DNA from: Nostoc linckia FACHB-104
GTDB lineage: Bacteria; Cyanobacteriota; Cyanobacteriia; Cyanobacteriales; Nostocaceae
Assembly: GCF_014696615.1 (NCBI RefSeq)
Contig: NZ_JACJQJ010000074.1
Span: forward strand, 1-42,515
Direction of reading: 5' to 3'
DNA: 42,515 nt
Under the pieces are notes generated by a model. It was not told where the DNA came from. It saw only the letters and a program-made list of their open reading frames with translations, and did not search any database. Within the stretch, counting starts at the first letter, position 1. The number at the start of each line of letters is the position of its first letter. A program made the translations under genes and the position numbers. Below are positions 2,286 to 39,261 of the stretch, piece after piece.

Positions 2286-2481
2286 ATGATGCTAGATATG
2301 AATGGTATTGCTACCTTTCAGGCGCTCCAATCTGATGCTGACTGAAACTGAACAAATTCCGGTTATCCTTTTAATTGCCATAGCACAAACGGCAGAAAAG
2401 CATCAGTTTCATGATTTGGGATTCCGTGGTGTAATTACCAAACCCTTGAACTCTCTAGAACTGAAAATTTTTTATTGGTAG
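2286..2481 (+). pseudogene. Remnant of a response-regulator receiver domain
   Basis: In one frame 2286-2345 gives MMLDMNGIATFQALQSDAD then a stop; in another frame 2338-2481 gives TETEQIPVILLIAIAQTAEK, a short link, then GFRGVITKPLNSLEL and a stop. Joined, these are the second half of a CheY-like domain: MNGIATFQAL after the phosphoacceptor, IPVILLxA (beta-4) and GVITKP with the conserved Lys-Pro. The phospho-Asp region is already degraded, and a frameshift separates the halves. It ends just inside the 5' edge of the next gene, also a response regulator, so it is likely the decayed end of an upstream two-component gene. Confidence 0.7.
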
Positions 2482-2489
2482 CTGCATCC

Positions 2490-4448
2490 ATGAAAATTTT
2501 GCTTGTAGAAGATGATGACGTATTAATTAAGGTTCTGACCAAAATTTTGACAACCCAGAACTATATTGTAGATGTTGTCAAAGATGGGGAAATGGGCTGG
2601 ACTTATGGCTCCACCTTTGAGTATGACCTCATATTACTGGATATCATGCTGCCAAAGTTGGATGGCATTAGCTTATGCAAGCGTTTCCGGACACAAGGAT
2701 ACACTGTCCCGATTCTATTGCTGACAGCTCAAGATAACATTACCGCCAAAGTACAAGGGTTAGATGCAGGTGCAGATGACTATGTTGTTAAACCCTTCGA
2801 GCAGGTAGAACTCATAGCCAGGATTCGCGCATTGCTGAGACGCGGAAGTAACAATCCTTTTCCCTTGTTAACTTGGGGGGATTTACTACTTAATCCTAGT
2901 ACTTGTGAAGTGACTTACAACGGCCGCCCCCTGAACCTGACAACGATGGAATATGATTTGCTAGAACTGTTACTGCGGCAATGTCAGCATGTCTTTAGTA
3001 GTGAAGAACTTCTAGACAGGTTATGGTCTTCAGAAGATTTTCCCTCTGAGGCTACAGTACGTTCCCATATTCGGCGGCTGCGGCACAAACTAGTGGCTGC
3101 GGGTGCCCCCCATGATTTTATTGCTACCATGCATGGACGGGGCTACTACCTGAAAGCGCCTAGCACCGAAGAAGTGACCGATTTATCGGCAACACCACCA
3201 GAAAATAATTCTCAAAGCGTTTCTGTAATAGCTACATCTAGAGAAACCCAGAGCGATCGCCCACAGCATTTGATGCCGCCAGACTCGCAACAACAATACC
3301 TGGCATTTCTCAATGAGACTTGGACAAGGACTAAACCGCAAAGTCTTGACCAGATGGCTATTTTATTACAAACCGTTAGAGACTTACAAACCAATCAACT
3401 TACAGCCCAGCAACAAGCACAAGCACAACAGGTAGTTCACAAACTCGCAGGGACTTTGGGAATTTTTGGGCTAACCAAAACAATGCACATTGCACGGCAA
3501 TTGGAGTATTGGTTAGGCGGTCGAGAACCACTGCAACCAAAACACGCACCATTAATGAAAACTCTGGTAACGGCTTTGCAGCAAGATATTGACCATACCA
3601 CACTGATTCAAATGTCTCAGATTCCCGCTGGACAGTCACCGCTGTTGCTAATTATTAGTTCGGATACTGAGTTTAACCAGTCAATTGTAGCTGTAGCAGC
3701 AAGCCGAGGAATTCGCATTCAGATTGCTCCAGCCGCAGATGTGGCTCAAGCCTTGCTCACAAACAAATCTGTTTTGGATGGTTTAGGAGAAGATCCCGAT
3801 GTCATCCTGATGCGGTTACCCTCAATTCCATCTAGATCGGAAGTCATCGATCAGCCTAACCCCGAGATCAGTAACTTTTGGGAGACATTGCAGACATTCG
3901 CACAATGTTACCCTAACTTGCCAATAGTCGTCATCGGCGATCGCGGTGACATGGGCGATCGCTTGGAAGCAATGCGGCGGGGTGGAAAACTTTTTTTAGT
4001 AACGCCAACTCCAGCAGAGCAAGTGATTGATACTGTAGTCAATTTATTACGAGATCCAGAAGTTCCCAACAAGGTCATGATCCTTGATGACGATCAAGAT
4101 TGGTTACGCACTCTCCCTACCTTGCTGAAACCCTGGGGATTCAAGGTAACAACCCTTGCCGATCCACAACAATTTTGGACAGTACTCCAAGCAGTTGCTC
4201 CCGATGCTTTGGTGTTAGATGTAAATATGCCACAAATCAATGGATTTGAACTCTGCCAAATTCTCCGCAGCGATCCCCATTGGCAGCGTTTACCAGTATT
4301 ATTTCTGAGTGTGTCAACAGATTCCACTACCCAGAATCAAGCTTTTGCTGTTGGTGGTGATGATTATCTGTGTAAACCTGTTAAAGGCGTGGAATTAGCT
4401 AACCGGATTCTGCGGCGGTTACAAAGAGTGAGAGCTTGGGCAAATTGA
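2490..4448 (+). CDS. Multidomain response regulator (REC - OmpR winged helix - Hpt - degenerate REC - REC)
   Basis: Domains in order: receiver 1-115 with D8/D9, phosphoacceptor D51, T79 and K101; OmpR/PhoB winged helix ~127-222 (TMEYDLLELLL, VRSHIRRLRHKL, GRGYYL); a polar linker; an Hpt-like helical domain ~265-370 with VVHKLAGTLGIFGL, H317 being the likely phosphorylated His; a receiver-like domain ~383-505 whose phospho-Asp position reads VILMRLPS, so it cannot be phosphorylated normally; and a full C-terminal receiver ~528-640 (MILDDD, D577 in LVLDVNMP, CKPV). It thus combines DNA binding with phosphorelay input. No histidine kinase gene is adjacent, so the partner must be elsewhere. I chose the ATG at 2490; a TTG at 2475 would add MVAAS, which does not look like the family. 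The ribosome binding site is weak. Confidence 0.9.
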   Translation: MKILLVEDDDVLIKVLTKILTTQNYIVDVVKDGEMGWTYGSTFEYDLILLDIMLPKLDGISLCKRFRTQGYTVPILLLTAQDNITAKVQGLDAGADDYVVKPFEQVELIARIRALLRRGSNNPFPLLTWGDLLLNPSTCEVTYNGRPLNLTTMEYDLLELLLRQCQHVFSSEELLDRLWSSEDFPSEATVRSHIRRLRHKLVAAGAPHDFIATMHGRGYYLKAPSTEEVTDLSATPPENNSQSVSVIATSRETQSDRPQHLMPPDSQQQYLAFLNETWTRTKPQSLDQMAILLQTVRDLQTNQLTAQQQAQAQQVVHKLAGTLGIFGLTKTMHIARQLEYWLGGREPLQPKHAPLMKTLVTALQQDIDHTTLIQMSQIPAGQSPLLLIISSDTEFNQSIVAVAASRGIRIQIAPAADVAQALLTNKSVLDGLGEDPDVILMRLPSIPSRSEVIDQPNPEISNFWETLQTFAQCYPNLPIVVIGDRGDMGDRLEAMRRGGKLFLVTPTPAEQVIDTVVNLLRDPEVPNKVMILDDDQDWLRTLPTLLKPWGFKVTTLADPQQFWTVLQAVAPDALVLDVNMPQINGFELCQILRSDPHWQRLPVLFLSVSTDSTTQNQAFAVGGDDYLCKPVKGVELANRILRRLQRVRAWAN

Positions 4449-26124: not shown

Positions 26125-27375
26125 ATGCAAGATGCCATTATTGTGCAGGGGTTAGGAAAGCGCTACAGCCGCTATCATGCGGAAAAACCCATGACGATTA
26201 TGGAAGCAGCGCTCAAAGGTTTCCGCCAGATGAAAGCCGTGGAAAAGTTTTGGGCGTTACGAGATATTAGCTTTAATGTTGCTCCTGGCGAAATGTTAGG
26301 AATTATCGGCAAAAATGGGGCAGGTAAATCTACGCTTTTACAACTTTTGGGTGGTGTTGGTTCTCCTGATGCAGGGAAAGTGAAAGTAAAGGGTAGAATT
26401 GGTGCTTTGTTAGACTTAGGAGCTGGTTTTTCTCCTGATTTAACCGGAAGGGAAAATGTTTTTGTCTCTGGTGTGGTTGGCGGTTTAACTCGCAAAGAAG
26501 TTTCACGGCGTTTCGATACGATTGTAGAGTTTGCAGAACTCACAGATTTTATTGACAATCCTGTACGCACCTACAGCACAGGTATGCAAATGCGCCTTGC
26601 TTTTTCCATCGCTATACATACCTACCCCGAAGTGCTATTGGTCGATGAGTTTCTGTCAGTGGGAGATATTTCATTTCAAGCTAAGTGTCTAGAACGCATT
26701 ACTTATCTGAAAGAACAAGGCTGTGCCATTGTCTATATTTCTCACGATACTCAACAAATTGCAGAAATATGCGATCGCGCCTTATGGTTGCAAGGAGGAA
26801 GAATCGTAGCTTATGGGGAACCAGAATTTGTTGCTGAACAATACACGGCTGAAATGCATCAACAAACCCGCAAACGTACTCCTGCAAGGCCTGTTCGGCT
26901 GACCAACTCAGGTTTAGAACTCCGAGTCAACGAAAACCGCTTTGGCTCATTAGAAATGGAAATTACGCAAGTTAAAATGTTACCTAGCTCAGAGATTAAT
27001 AGCGGTGATGCTTTAACTCTGGAGATTGAGTACTTCTCAAATCAGCTAATTGAATTTCCTATCTTTAGCATTGATATTAGCCGCGAAAATGGTCAAGTCT
27101 GCTTTCAGACCAATACTGAAAGAACAGGGTTGACTTTCCAAAAAATTTTAGACCAAGGAAAAATTAAACTGCATATTGACCGCTTAGATTTGGCGGGAGG
27201 TAAATATTTTATCGATATAGGAGTTTATAAGCATAATTGGGAATATGCTTATGATTATCACTGGCACGCATACCCTCTAATTGTTAATTCAACTGTTAAG
27301 GGCAATAGTATTTTATGTCCCCCATTTCGCTGGGAAATCAATAGCTTACAAACTTCACAAATTAAACCTTTATAA
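26125..27375 (+). CDS. Polysaccharide ABC exporter ATPase with C-terminal recognition domain (Wzt-like)
   Basis: The nucleotide-binding domain covers residues ~1-240: Walker A GKNGAGKST (62-70), the YSTGMQMRLAF signature and Walker B LLVDEFLSVGD with the typical Glu-to-Asp context of this subfamily. Residues ~265-410 form a beta-rich Wzt-C-like domain, which in E. coli O8/O9a Wzt recognises the modified end of the glycan. Together with the permease and the methyltransferase this suggests export of a capped polysaccharide through an ABC-dependent route. It begins right after the permease stop with GGAGG at 26112-26116 as its ribosome site. It is the last gene of the operon. Confidence 0.94.
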   Translation: MQDAIIVQGLGKRYSRYHAEKPMTIMEAALKGFRQMKAVEKFWALRDISFNVAPGEMLGIIGKNGAGKSTLLQLLGGVGSPDAGKVKVKGRIGALLDLGAGFSPDLTGRENVFVSGVVGGLTRKEVSRRFDTIVEFAELTDFIDNPVRTYSTGMQMRLAFSIAIHTYPEVLLVDEFLSVGDISFQAKCLERITYLKEQGCAIVYISHDTQQIAEICDRALWLQGGRIVAYGEPEFVAEQYTAEMHQQTRKRTPARPVRLTNSGLELRVNENRFGSLEMEITQVKMLPSSEINSGDALTLEIEYFSNQLIEFPIFSIDISRENGQVCFQTNTERTGLTFQKILDQGKIKLHIDRLDLAGGKYFIDIGVYKHNWEYAYDYHWHAYPLIVNSTVKGNSILCPPFRWEINSLQTSQIKPL

Positions 27376-27633
27376 CCATCCTGACCGAATTTTTATATCG
27401 ATTTTTTGATTTGATTTTGGGATATTTTAAGTAATGTCCTCAAAAAGCTATCTGACACCCCTCTATCCAGTAGAATTTGACAGATTTTTCCTCTTCCTCT
27501 TTATTAAGAGTTTTAGGGGGATCGAATTTCATACATCTTTATAATATTGCAATAATCTAGATTTATCGCAACTTAACAGTTTAAAATTTATCTGATAAAG
27601 AGTATTCTATGGTTGCTATAAATCAAAAAGTAT

Positions 27634-28071
27634 ATGAATGCACAACTAACTCTAGACGAAATTAATTCAGTACGCAAATTACTCAAAGAATATCAACCAG
27701 CACACACAGCCATTGATGCGGTAGAACGTCACAATGGAAATCTCGAAACCTCTTTTGAGGAACTGTGGATTGAAAAACACGGACAATCGGCGATGGGAGT
27801 TAAAAAAATCTGGCAAACTACATTAGATGTGTTGCGAGATGAACTTTGCGGAGATGAAGGTTTTCGGGCGCGTTTGAGCGATTATACCAAAAGTCCAGAA
27901 AATGCTGTGTTACTTACAGCAGCAATTACATCTCTCATGGCTTTAACTGCAATTCCCCTCGATCCATCAATTGCTACTATTATTGTTCTCTACATTCTCA
28001 AAATTGGCTTGAATGTTTATTGTCAATATACCGATAAAGGTGATGGGGGAACTTTACCACCTGGCAAATAA
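27634..28071 (+). CDS. Small two-TM protein of unknown family
   Basis: A 145-residue protein I do not recognise. The N-terminal ~85 residues are helical and charged; the run IDAVERHNGNLETSFEELW resembles the last helix of UBA/CUE-type three-helix modules (Ala, Gly-Asn, Leu-Glu and Leu spacing), which is only a pattern, not a family call. Residues ~92-132 give two hydrophobic helices separated by Pro-Ser (AVLLTAAITSLMALTAI and IATIIVLYILKIGLNVY), then a short polar tail. It is convergent with the CHAT-STAND gene across a minisatellite, so the pair may be functionally related. The ATG at 27634 has no good Shine-Dalgarno. Confidence 0.6.
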   Translation: MNAQLTLDEINSVRKLLKEYQPAHTAIDAVERHNGNLETSFEELWIEKHGQSAMGVKKIWQTTLDVLRDELCGDEGFRARLSDYTKSPENAVLLTAAITSLMALTAIPLDPSIATIIVLYILKIGLNVYCQYTDKGDGGTLPPGK

Positions 28072-28085
28072 CTTCGTTAAGCTGC

Positions 28086-28358
28086 GCGATCGCACAATAA
28101 TTATTGAGGATATCATGCCAAAACGCGATCGCATCTCCACAAAACCCTGAAACGCGATCGCACAATAATTATTGAGGATATCATGCCAAAACGCGATCGC
28201 ACTCCACAAAACCCCAAAACGCGATCGCATTTCACAACCCCAAAACGCGATCGCACTCCACAACCCCAAAACGCGATCGCACTCCACAAATCCAAAAAGC
28301 GATCGCACTCCACAAATCCAAAATGCGATCGCACTCCACAAATCCAAAATGCGATCGC
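28086..28358. repeat. HIP1-based minisatellite: ten GCGATCGC sites, 26-bp period
   Basis: GCGATCGC occurs at 28086, 28125, 28154, 28193, 28221, 28247, 28273, 28299, 28325 and 28351. The last six sites are exactly 26 bp apart, with the interval mostly ACTCCACAAATCCAAAAT or a close variant. The first four come as a 39-bp unit (containing ATAATTATTGAGG) present twice, at 28086-28124 and 28154-28192. Because 26 is not a multiple of three and both flanking genes end at the array edges, it is non-coding. The array fills the convergent gap between the two-TM gene (stop at 28071) and the CHAT gene (stop at 28359). Confidence 0.9.
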
Positions 28359-31300
28359 TTACTCCTCACTAGTGATTATTGCTTCCTTCAATTCATCCAC
28401 CGTTGTCCCAAATATCTTCGCTACCTCTTTTAATAACTCTTCATCCTGCGTAGTTTGATAAAAACGGGCAAGATTACGCAGGGAAATACCCAAACCATTC
28501 TCGTCATTAAACTCATTTGTAATTACCAAATCTTGTAGGTAATTGGCTTTTGCTGACTCCAACTCTCCTAATGCTTCTGCTACTTTTCCAAGCTGGTGGT
28601 AAGTGCTAGCACAACTATAGCGATCGCCAAATTCGATTTTTATTTCCAGGGCTTGTTGATAATAATCCCGTGCCTGGTCGTATTCTCGCAACTCTTCGGC
28701 AACCCTTCCCAACTGGTGGTAAGTGCTTGCTAAACCAGACTTGATTTGTGTTGCTTCTACACCTTGGAGTTGTTGGGATAATTCGAGAATTTGCAGATAT
28801 GATTCTTTGGCTTGGGGATAATTTTGTGTTTGGAAATAACCCGTAGCCAGGCGATAAAGCGCCATTATAATTTCCAACCCTATCTCACCTGTTCTAATTT
28901 CTGGTGGATAAGCGGCTTGGGCGTTACAGACAAATTCCGACAGTTTCAAACGACTGGAAATATCATTAATTAACTTTAAGTATTCGCCCAAGCAAAAGAA
29001 AATATCAATAGTTTCTTGTTTCTCTAAGCAAATCTGCAAGGCATTATATAAATTTTCATATTCCAGCCGACAGAAGAAAATCCCGATTTTTCTTTCTTGT
29101 GCTTCCTTCGATTCCATGTAGCGATTGTAGGAACGAGCTAAACCAATATAGTGGTTTTTAAAACCCTCTCGTAATGCTTCGCGGGTAGCTGCATCTAGTT
29201 CTGCTAATTTTGCTTTGAGAAAGAAGGGAAAAACAGGTTGAATTTGTAATAACTGCGGAATCTCTTCATTAATCAGCGAGAGCAAACCCCAATTTATCGC
29301 TTCTTGAATTGCTCCATCAAACTTATCAAAATCATAATCATGAAACGGCTCTAACTTCTGTAATTTCTTAGCATAATTAGGAATATCGCTTTTATCAATA
29401 AACCCACTAAAGGGAGCCAAACACAATAATAATTTCTGAGCATCAGACGACAAATTACTATGGGAATATTCTACACATTTTAGAATACTCTGAGTTTTAT
29501 CCTCACTTCCCCTATCTAAATTAATATCTGCTGCTTGCAGCTTCCCTAAAATTTCCTGAGATGACAAATTTTTCAAATTTGCTAACACCACTTCCATCGC
29601 TAACGGATACCCCGCTAACACCTTCATCAATTTCCTAAAATCCTCATCTTCCCGAATCTTCGCTATCTTCTGCTCATCCCCAACATTCCGTTCTAAAATT
29701 TTATTAGATAACTCCGTCCTCGCTTGGGCATCTAATCCTTGCAACTTATAAACATTCTGTTGAAAAGCTCCTTTCAACCAACTTTCATCACTACGAGAAC
29801 CTAAAATTACCCGCGTTTCTCCCTCTACCAACCTTGTTAAAAAATCTTTTATTTGCTGTTGCTCATCGGATGGTAAGGTATTTTGAATCGCTAAAGCTTG
29901 TCCCGTCACCGACTCCAAATTATCCAATATCAAAACATGAGCTTCTGACCGCAATTTTGCCAGTAATTTCTGTTTCTGTACATTTAAATTCATTGCTTGA
30001 AAATTCGCAAACTCAAACTTTTTATATACCCGCTTGCCAATCTCAAACAAAATCTGTGTCAGCGTCCAAGCTTTTTCATCATACCCAAAATAAAATATCT
30101 CTGGTGCAAAGTTCGTTGTTTGCCACCAACTACGCAAATAATTTAACAGCGTAGTTTTTCCCGTCCCTCCCATTCCCTGCAACAGCAAAATATTATGGCG
30201 AAATAAAGCCTTTTCAATCTTCAATATCTCCAAATCTCGCCCAATAAATCCATATTCTGGCGGCGTATATTGATATAAATTACCCAAGTTATCAAAATAC
30301 GCTTCTTCTTCCTCAGCTATAAATTTCCGCAAATTCAAATTTACCTGTTGGTTACTATAAACCACAGGCAAAAGCCAATCTTCTAAATCAATATTGGTAT
30401 TAAAATAAGCCTTGCGCGTCTTATTATTAAATAACTCCCTTCTCCCCAACCGAATCGCTTCGGTGATTTCCTTCCCGCCAAACAAGTTTTGATAAACCTG
30501 TTCCATCATTAACCGTGCTGCGGAAACCGTCACCGAATACCCCATTGCAACTACCATTTGCATTCCCGCAGTCATCAACCGACTACCTAAACTCGTCTCC
30601 CTAGCCTCCCTTCCATCATCCCCCGTATCTCCCTGTTCTCCATTACCTCGTACCTGCTTCCCCGACTGACAAGCATTGAGAATACAAACAGGAATCCCCT
30701 TCCCCGTCAACAAATCCGCTAATTCCCCCGCTTCTACGGGATCAGCTTTTCCCTTACTTTCCCCATCCAAAAACAAAAATGCTTTTACCCCCTCATAGGG
30801 TTGAATATCTTCCCGTCCCCACCTTGCTTGATAAGTATATCGGTTGCGTTTCACCTCTGCTTGAATATCTGCATAACTCATCAACGCCCCGTGACAGTCA
30901 AAATGGATGATATGGTAATATCCTGCACCTTTTTCCTCTAAATGCCGTTCTAAACTTTCATAAGTACCCGGACGCAATAAGTCAATATTTACAGGCAATT
31001 GGCTATTTTGAATTACCTCAATTAACGGCCGGGCAATGGTACGATAACCCACATCATTTTCCTCATCCGGTCGCGCAATGACCACCAATAAGTTAATAAT
31101 TGGCGATTCCGCCATCTTCGCCGCCACTGATGCCGCTTTACCAAGGCGCTTACGTATCATTACGCAATCCACAGCCAAAGGTCGCGGCCAATCCTTATCC
31201 TGCATAGCTTCCCAGTGCAGCGCGTGAAATTCGGGACTATTACCAACTATCTCAATTTTTACCTGCTTGAGATTGCCCCGCAGTTCGCGGTAATGGCTAT

Positions 31301-31562
31301 AAGCATCAATATCAGCTTTAAAAACCTGCTCAAATAAACTTTCCCCGTAACTAGCAACACTGGTTTTCGCTGCTTCCGCTTTCCTCCCGTTCAACATCGG
31401 GTAAGTCAGCCACTCCTCAAAATACCATTCCAGTTGCTTTTCTTGCTGCGGTGTAAAAGGGTCAGTAATATTAATTGGGTATTCGCTATCACCCTCAAAA
31501 ATCAGACTTGCAGCAAAACCCTGTTCTGTTGGCTGCTGTTCCCGAATCGTAATTACTGCCAT
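28359..31562 (-). CDS. CHAT protease - STAND NTPase - TPR protein
   Basis: Three parts in 1067 residues. Residues ~1-400: CHAT peptidase (clan CD), with the catalytic pair visible as HFDCHGAL (H224) and LNACQSG (C298). Residues ~435-790: STAND/NB-ARC-like NTPase with LLLQGMGGTGKTTLL (P-loop ~465-472), Walker B VLILDNLES (~546) and the sensor-like VILGSRSDESWL, then winged-helix-like and helical parts. Residues ~840-1067: TPR-like repeats, clearest in STYHQLGRVAEELREYDQ and STYHQLGKVAEALGELES. In plants and bacteria this order means a sensor (TPR) that controls a protease through nucleotide switching, in conflict or programmed-death systems; the target is unknown here. I chose ATG 31562 over TTG 31568. 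Catalytic residues are intact. Confidence 0.9.
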   Translation of the reverse strand: MAVITIREQQPTEQGFAASLIFEGDSEYPINITDPFTPQQEKQLEWYFEEWLTYPMLNGRKAEAAKTSVASYGESLFEQVFKADIDAYSHYRELRGNLKQVKIEIVGNSPEFHALHWEAMQDKDWPRPLAVDCVMIRKRLGKAASVAAKMAESPIINLLVVIARPDEENDVGYRTIARPLIEVIQNSQLPVNIDLLRPGTYESLERHLEEKGAGYYHIIHFDCHGALMSYADIQAEVKRNRYTYQARWGREDIQPYEGVKAFLFLDGESKGKADPVEAGELADLLTGKGIPVCILNACQSGKQVRGNGEQGDTGDDGREARETSLGSRLMTAGMQMVVAMGYSVTVSAARLMMEQVYQNLFGGKEITEAIRLGRRELFNNKTRKAYFNTNIDLEDWLLPVVYSNQQVNLNLRKFIAEEEEAYFDNLGNLYQYTPPEYGFIGRDLEILKIEKALFRHNILLLQGMGGTGKTTLLNYLRSWWQTTNFAPEIFYFGYDEKAWTLTQILFEIGKRVYKKFEFANFQAMNLNVQKQKLLAKLRSEAHVLILDNLESVTGQALAIQNTLPSDEQQQIKDFLTRLVEGETRVILGSRSDESWLKGAFQQNVYKLQGLDAQARTELSNKILERNVGDEQKIAKIREDEDFRKLMKVLAGYPLAMEVVLANLKNLSSQEILGKLQAADINLDRGSEDKTQSILKCVEYSHSNLSSDAQKLLLCLAPFSGFIDKSDIPNYAKKLQKLEPFHDYDFDKFDGAIQEAINWGLLSLINEEIPQLLQIQPVFPFFLKAKLAELDAATREALREGFKNHYIGLARSYNRYMESKEAQERKIGIFFCRLEYENLYNALQICLEKQETIDIFFCLGEYLKLINDISSRLKLSEFVCNAQAAYPPEIRTGEIGLEIIMALYRLATGYFQTQNYPQAKESYLQILELSQQLQGVEATQIKSGLASTYHQLGRVAEELREYDQARDYYQQALEIKIEFGDRYSCASTYHQLGKVAEALGELESAKANYLQDLVITNEFNDENGLGISLRNLARFYQTTQDEELLKEVAKIFGTTVDELKEAIITSEE

Positions 31563-31568
31563 ACACAA

Positions 31569-39106: not shown

Positions 39107-39261
39107 TATAGCAATCCCGAATGATTTGTGAAATATGACATCAAGGGTTGTTAACACTCAACAGTCAACAGTCAACAGTCAACTGTCAACTGTCAACTGT
39201 CAACTGTCAACAGTCAACAGTCAAAACCACTATTTTTCACAACTAAAATATGATTGCTATA
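39107..39261. mobile_element. MITE-like element, 155 bp, with internal heptamer array
   Basis: Ends are TATAGCAATC (39107-39116) and GATTGCTATA (39252-39261), with further matching inside: TTTGTGAAA on the left (39126-39134) and TTTTTCACAA on the right. The right end overlaps the last codons of znuC, and the stop TAG (39257-39259 on the complement) lies inside the terminal repeat. The interior is the TCAACWG heptamer array. A third TATAGCAAT sits at 38998-39007, at the start of znuB. No coding capacity. Confidence 0.65.
39158..39220. repeat. TCAACWG heptamer array, nine units
   Basis: Nine perfect 7-bp units in the order TCAACAG x3 (39158-39178), TCAACTG x4 (39179-39206), TCAACAG x2 (39207-39220), followed by TCAAAA. 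This is a short tandemly repeated repetitive (STRR) sequence as known from cyanobacteria, inside the MITE-like element. Confidence 0.95.

Follow-up and report, generated by a model that had tools for sequence, protein, structure and literature searches.

How do ten copies of a genome-wide octamer come to stand in one short gap between two genes, and what might such an array do there? The question is raised by a locus in the window, the 42,515-nucleotide stretch of Nostoc linckia FACHB-104 DNA analysed here, in which the initial annotation claimed ten exact copies of the palindrome HIP1 (GCGATCGC) within positions 28086-28358 and in which a count finds them all. They start at 28086, 28125, 28154, 28193, 28221, 28247, 28273, 28299, 28325 and 28351, giving site-to-site gaps of 39, 29, 39 and 28 bp and then five consecutive gaps of 26 bp, so that six sites are, as claimed, exactly 26 bp apart. 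Two HIP1-headed unit types build the minisatellite, all read on the plus strand. Type A (HIP1 plus 31 bp) is present in two identical copies (28086-28124 and 28154-28192), and type B (HIP1 plus 18-21 bp) in seven, namely a 29-bp variant (28125-28153), a 28-bp variant (28193-28220) and five units of 26 bp (28221-28350); the types have HIP1 and a few bases on either side of it in common. The 39-bp units had thus rightly been seen as a pair, but they alternate with the 29- and 28-bp units and do not stand side by side. TRF describes the same stretch by a period of 68 (2.1 copies) and a period of 26 (6.6 copies). The head-to-tail units fall within the 10-100 bp class of minisatellites and VNTRs and HIP1 is present in them as the exact octamer, and since 26, 28 and 29 bp are not multiples of three a coding repeat is ruled out in the window.

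The array not only lies between two convergent genes, as had been proposed, but fills the whole gap between their stop codons (28072-28358, 287 bp; ten HIP1, nine units A-B-A-B-B-B-B-B-B and a closing HIP1). On the left it adjoins the stop codon of an open reading frame on the plus strand (27634-28071), which encodes a 145-aa protein without a Pfam family, and its closing HIP1 (28351-28358, plus strand) adjoins the stop codon of the gene on the minus strand (28359-31568), identified by ORF call and Pfam as encoding a CHAT-NACHT-TPR protein of 1069 aa, whose 3' end therefore meets the array. The 145-aa protein is encoded close to CHAT-TPR relatives in several genera, and the two proteins may work together. 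Elsewhere the window contains 10.3 copies of the heptamer AACAGTC (39153-39224), six more 7-bp repeats and one 9-bp repeat. The left border of the array (28070-28087, AACTTCGTTAAGCTGCGC) is common to a congener locus (L087) in which HIP1 is split by the border sequence, and resembles an incomplete small dispersed repeat. Three other arrays are edged by sequences of about 21-26 bp, possibly SDR5, that interrupt HIP1 behind its third base (both flanks of L086 4256-4389, the left flanks of L087 and L099). The available part of PMC4390886 describes SDR5 as splitting HIP1; in the window all ten HIP1 are intact and the units keep them whole, the partial border being the sole trace, so that the array itself lacks the insert after the third HIP1 base that marks SDR5. 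HIP1 as described in the same source is the identical octamer, likewise preserved far better than the adjacent DNA, but it is known there as dispersed, whereas in the window it heads each tandem unit, and the main text as available uses none of the words tandem, cluster and array.

How exceptional is such an array? At 0.92 HIP1 per kb (1.2 Mb from three congeners) about 0.25 would be expected in 273 bp, and ten are therefore far beyond chance. HIP1 clusters as such are unremarkable, since clusters of three sites at gaps of 10-36 were found in 111 of 194 genomes of the class and at control gaps of 110-136 in 127 of 194, so that no short-range clustering in the class was detected; of 58 relatives, 40 have three HIP1 at gaps of 10-30. 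Nor did an evenly sampled 1.2 Mb from three congeners show any enrichment of HIP1 among tandem repeats over chance, as none of 82 repeats of period 18-45 carried it where about 1.7 were expected. Arrays with at least ten HIP1 sites were found in eight relatives looked into (G001, G002, G007, G012, G015, G025, G027 and G056), with spacers that differ locus by locus; 70 of the fetched arrays have at least four sites, and an approximate reading of three near-complete congeners gives about five non-coding array loci per genome. Arrays elsewhere with 18-, 21-, 36- or 42-bp units are possibly coding and were left out of later counts. HIP1 tandem arrays are thus recurrent yet rare, and the description of the window array as unusual holds for a true array of a rare kind but not for a one-off, as such arrays recur in related genera. 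Inside genes HIP1 reaches 1.02 per kb, in intergenic DNA 0.53-0.60 per kb (60 stretches of 20 kb from G001, G002 and G007), so that intergenic arrays run counter to the general trend. HIP1-bounded modules of one unit family recur in varying order, with HIP1 as the joint, at several loci and genomes (L090, L091, L098, L106), and a second recurring family is seen at L094, L096, L102, L110, L203 and L204. By title or the start of the abstract no literature report of HIP1 tandem arrays came up, by which absence from print is not claimed.

Comparison with relatives indicates that the locus is variable. Of seven congeners, two encode the 145-aa protein at 98-99% identity, namely Calothrix membranacea FACHB-236 and Nostoc carneum NIES-2107, and both carry an array at that place. 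Since these congeners have another unit order and number at the syntenic place, A-B-A-A-B-B-A-B-B-B (10 units) in N. carneum, where 2 of 11 unit heads read ACGATCGC, and A-B-A-B-A-B (6 units) in C. membranacea as against nine units in the window, the array is a variable repeat and not an assembly artefact, which its presence in two other assemblies rules out. The copy-number differences sought by the initial annotation are accordingly there, as a comparison between species with one genome per species. A recombination hot spot had also been suggested. The changed unit orders mean that units were exchanged or duplicated, but do not by themselves establish a hot spot. In three Calothrix records (L265, L266, L268) the gap of the orthologous gene pair contains no HIP1, and in three Nostoc records (L263, L264, L269) a different sequence without an array follows the 145-aa gene; one of these, Nostoc sp. 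S13 (L269), has a single HIP1 and then the beginning of a type A unit. Because related records have the pair or the 145-aa gene without an array, the array is young, changing and dispensable for the gene pair. In its tandem units of 26-39 bp, differing in number and order among related species, it resembles bacterial minisatellites or VNTRs, from which it is set apart by two unit types joined at a frozen palindrome, by drifting spacers and by strand-specific composition.

Could all this be the work of slippage? Where chance has placed two HIP1 at a distance of 20-40 bp, they constitute an 8-bp direct repeat; slippage could duplicate the interval, and the array could then persist as a neutral minisatellite under little counter-selection. 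Both array borders in the window lie at HIP1, unit number and order vary among the three species, and S13 resembles a pre-array state, all of which this account would lead one to expect, as it would the lack of HIP1 enrichment among tandem repeats (0/82). HIP1 reportedly promotes excision, going by the title of a 1997 report by Robinson, which was also counted in its favour. We consider such a neutral origin a serious contender, although somewhat more probably wrong than right. It accounts for the array itself as well as any function does; what it leaves unaccounted for are the strand rule and the link to repeat genes, to which we return below.

Within the arrays the octamer behaves differently from what surrounds it. 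In 14 arrays, after removal of units more than 4 bp from the common length, 7 of 1152 HIP1 positions deviate from the octamer and 441 of 3612 spacer positions from the spacer consensus, a contrast that is partly ascertainment, as the arrays were found through exact HIP1. In the type B units of the two orthologues, which were found by protein, 2 of 64 HIP1 positions had changed as against 10 of 144 in the spacers. As part of the same neutral reading, and with the same probability, this constancy would be apparent only, the whole genome keeping HIP1, and in the available part of PMC6604393 HIP1 is indeed abundant and maintained genome-wide. Since the octamer is frozen while the spacers drift, a single locus suffices to measure HIP1 maintenance, and even a neutral array would be a natural experiment, with 8 bp frozen and spacers drifting about 20-fold more.

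Every HIP1 contains GATC and CGATCG, and it could be imagined that the array, densely methylated at these sites, serves as a mark on the DNA or is bound by a protein. Dense methylation is described for Synechocystis 6803 (PMC6604393, available part) in the CRISPR1 array, which holds over 50 CGATCG within 3600 bp and likewise has them regularly spaced in one place; there the site lies within a long repeat between unique spacers, whereas the window array has an 8-bp constant part and repeated spacers, which also rules it out as a CRISPR array. According to the same part of that source CRISPR1 interference is unaffected by loss of 5mC. Moreover, spacing is free to vary across non-coding arrays, from about 21 to 60 bp, and no result obtained here demands a methylation block; a role of this kind is very improbable.

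The type B units fall into a class found in several genera and defined post hoc, after inspection of the data, by the pattern HIP1-RTTTTGG...RAGT-HIP1 on one strand, with a spacer almost without C; in its strict form the pattern occurs in 16 of 145 genomes of the family and in 8 of 56 genera. On the C-poor strand, which in the window is the minus strand, an adjacent pair of HIP1 forms a predicted stem that is lengthened by the spacer ends. Measured against shuffled spacers, the mean hairpin Z is -1.19 on the C-poor strand and -0.69 on the opposite strand (16 loci, not all independent), as compared with -0.09 at 42 loci of other HIP1 arrays. Folded as a whole, the window array reaches an MFE of -121.1 kcal/mol (z -6.6) on the minus strand and of -83.3 (z -9.2) on the plus strand, z-scores that say little because so many palindrome copies must pair. 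Four terminator-like sites were predicted in 27500-28900, as against a mean of 1.3 in shuffles, and the three inside the array are all on the minus strand. Two overlapping HIP1-stem hairpins (28358-28325 and 28332-28299, together 28299-28358), each with a T-rich stretch behind it, lie on the sense strand of the CHAT-TPR gene, and a third hairpin has 20 pairs (28215-28260, minus strand). By prediction the array thus offers what defines an intrinsic terminator in sequence (a GC-rich hairpin and a U-rich stretch past the stop codon on the sense strand), with short U-stretches behind the hairpins, and also what defines a hairpin cluster, adjacent hairpins near a stop codon, with the array beginning 1 bp past that codon. 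A known RNA family was dropped as a candidate, as a search of 27000-29500 against Rfam gave no match at the gathering score and a sole sub-threshold match, to snoR28 (26.3 bits, cut-off 45), outside the array. DNA uptake sequences of Neisseria and Haemophilus double as terminators; they are likewise motifs over-represented genome-wide that pair as a terminator stem, but as single pairs and not in long arrays. Clustered hairpins have been proposed as terminators (PMC8355165, available part), and the array resembles intrinsic terminators and such clusters in having several GC-stem hairpins near a stop codon with T-rich sequence behind them on the sense strand; it differs in that all stems come from one palindrome, common throughout the genome and repeated here up to about ten times, and its hairpins are known here from prediction.

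Does the C-poor strand follow the genes? Among 37 class loci examined with codon-model gene calls, three of them without a callable upstream gene, the upstream gene lies on the C-poor strand of the unit in 29 of 34 (24 of 29 with orthologues collapsed), the five exceptions being L188, the first array of L190, the second of L193 and both of L256. As the 18 convergent loci agree and the 2 divergent ones disagree by construction, the co-directional loci are the informative ones, and 11 of 13 agree (one-sided p 0.011). With a cruder ORF caller 11 of 16 co-directional loci agree, and 9 of 11 with ORFs of at least 150 aa (own tally). Class loci are also more often convergent than divergent, 13:2 with orthologues collapsed as against 21:39 for all intergenic HIP1 of the 1.2-Mb sample (p 4e-4). 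Other HIP1 arrays show 14:9 (own tally; p 0.047 versus intergenic HIP1), and the convergent excess does not differ significantly between the class and other arrays (p 0.14). A C-poor sense strand as a generic property of repeats is ruled out, as HIP1-free tandem repeats show no strand preference (C-poor strand equal to gene strand 43:42 and 30:26). Loss of C from the sense strand through transcription is a conceivable cause of the C-poor spacers. In other unit families obedience to the strand rule is not clear, and a single rule for all HIP1 arrays, tried by T count after HIP1, had a mixed outcome. HIP1 pairs as terminators throughout the genome are likewise unsupported, with 8 close extragenic pairs in 1.2 Mb, 2 of them convergent and 2 divergent. 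Neutrality alone does not predict the strand rule (11/13).

These observations are best explained, with a probability that we put at roughly 45%, by the array being a HIP1-maintained repeat that provides clustered terminator-like hairpins at the 3' end of the CHAT-TPR gene. Briefly, tandem duplication and recombination between HIP1-bounded units would alter copy number and order, and the process that keeps HIP1 genome-wide would preserve the octamers of the array. On the minus strand, the CHAT-TPR sense strand, neighbouring palindromes would pair as GC-rich stems, to which the C-poor spacers would contribute pairs of the U-A and G-U kind, leaving every stem followed by a U-rich stretch. Since the sense strand gives such stems and stretches, the CHAT-TPR message would end in a row of intrinsic-terminator-like hairpins, which may act as a clustered terminator, as a barrier to 3' exonucleases or as both, in bacteria without Rho; termination or RNA protection, like the mode of copy-number change, we infer from these patterns. 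For this explanation speak the constancy of HIP1 (7/1152), the hairpin Z (-1.19 versus -0.09), the co-directional loci (11/13) and arrays with other units at the same gene end in other genera (L195 and L257, below); against it speak the cruder caller (11/16), the opposite strand (Z -0.69), the plus-strand z of -9.2, the short U-stretches and the array-free Calothrix pairs. An effect on the transcript ends of both genes had been suggested, and a transcript-end effect is indeed the best-supported function, although the strand-specific RNA signal favours the CHAT gene and not both genes equally.

Which genes have such an array at their 3' end? Among genes of at least 150 aa with the 3' end facing a HIP1 array, 17 of 49 contain internal tandem repeats, as compared with 20 of 400 controls (p 9e-9), or 14 of 44 with orthologues collapsed (p 4e-7), the control genes coming from three congeners and the arrays from more genomes. 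A second count by other rules gave 18 of 62 versus 5 of 109 for 3'-facing genes, and 1 of 24 versus 5 of 135 for 5'-facing genes. Counted by locus, 25 of 75 HIP1 arrays and 16 of 255 random intergenic points have a tandem-repeat gene on a flank. At HIP1-free repeats (13/276) and at intergenic HIP1 (3/81) such genes are few, and neutrality does not predict the 3'-side excess. The contrast is weakest when non-adjacent genes at these loci serve as the comparison (22/248, p 1.3e-5), some of them being neighbours of shorter arrays, and the 17 genes make up about five related groups. HIP1 density in tandem-repeat genes is not raised (0.89 versus 1.03 per kb) and hence does not explain the link, for which no paper was found, though no search was aimed at it by name.

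The array-facing repeat genes encode TPR, WD40 and pentapeptide repeats, several together with nSTAND1 and the one in the window with CHAT and NACHT, while two repeat families (L090/L106; L097) had no Pfam match; next to arrays, a sensor kinase (L245) and an Mrr-type protein (L254) depart from this pattern. In two other genera an array of other units stands at the same gene end, in L195 (G015) behind a homologue of the window CHAT-TPR gene that is truncated where the locus ends, and in L257 (G267) behind a TPR gene, and in each locus the 145-aa protein has a relative, too. In L195 that relative is separated from the array by two small genes (110 and 111 aa; 2400-3064), which we take to resemble a nucleotidyltransferase/HEPN toxin-antitoxin pair. 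In the TPR-coding part of some CHAT-TPR orthologues HIP1 occurs every ~120 bp, once per 40-aa repeat (L262 7036-7634, L264 8445-9165, L261 6919-7159); that of the window contains a single HIP1 (28620).

It could also be imagined that a HIP1 array is a mark or a driver of tandem duplication and recombination at the 3' end of its repeat gene, array and coding repeats expanding and contracting together. The 3'-facing excess and its lack on the 5' side would fit, as would the near-identity of many coding repeats in array-facing genes (self-identity 0.6-0.97) and the varying length of the CHAT-TPR orthologues, 1069 aa in the window with longest ORFs of 1395 (L268), 1305 (L264) and 1244 (L266), together with the 120-bp rhythm of HIP1 in some of them. 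L268, however, has the longest ORF and zero HIP1 in the examined stretch, and the unraised HIP1 density, the smaller contrast with non-adjacent genes and the few families behind the 17 genes also tell against a shared turnover, which is improbable.

Returning to hairpins at the end of the message, what would the array mean for the family? The purpose of HIP1 and the ending of transcription in cyanobacteria without Rho are open questions on which it bears. In Synechococcus elongatus, which has no Rho, 22% of transcription units fit canonical intrinsic termination (PMC13289151, available part), and HIP1 shows an enrichment of RNA polymerase peaks, yet at 41 of 7,402 sites (PMC3219970, available part). 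In the widest form of the explanation, which is attractive but doubtful, STAND/CHAT-type repeat genes of Nostocaceae that diversify rapidly (TPR, WD40, pentapeptide) would recurrently carry HIP1 arrays as a 3' module, in which palindromes kept by the genome are reused as sense-strand hairpin stems that end or protect the message, with copy number as the tuner. If this were true, clustered HIP1 would have a concrete use, and bacteria without Rho a non-canonical type of terminator.
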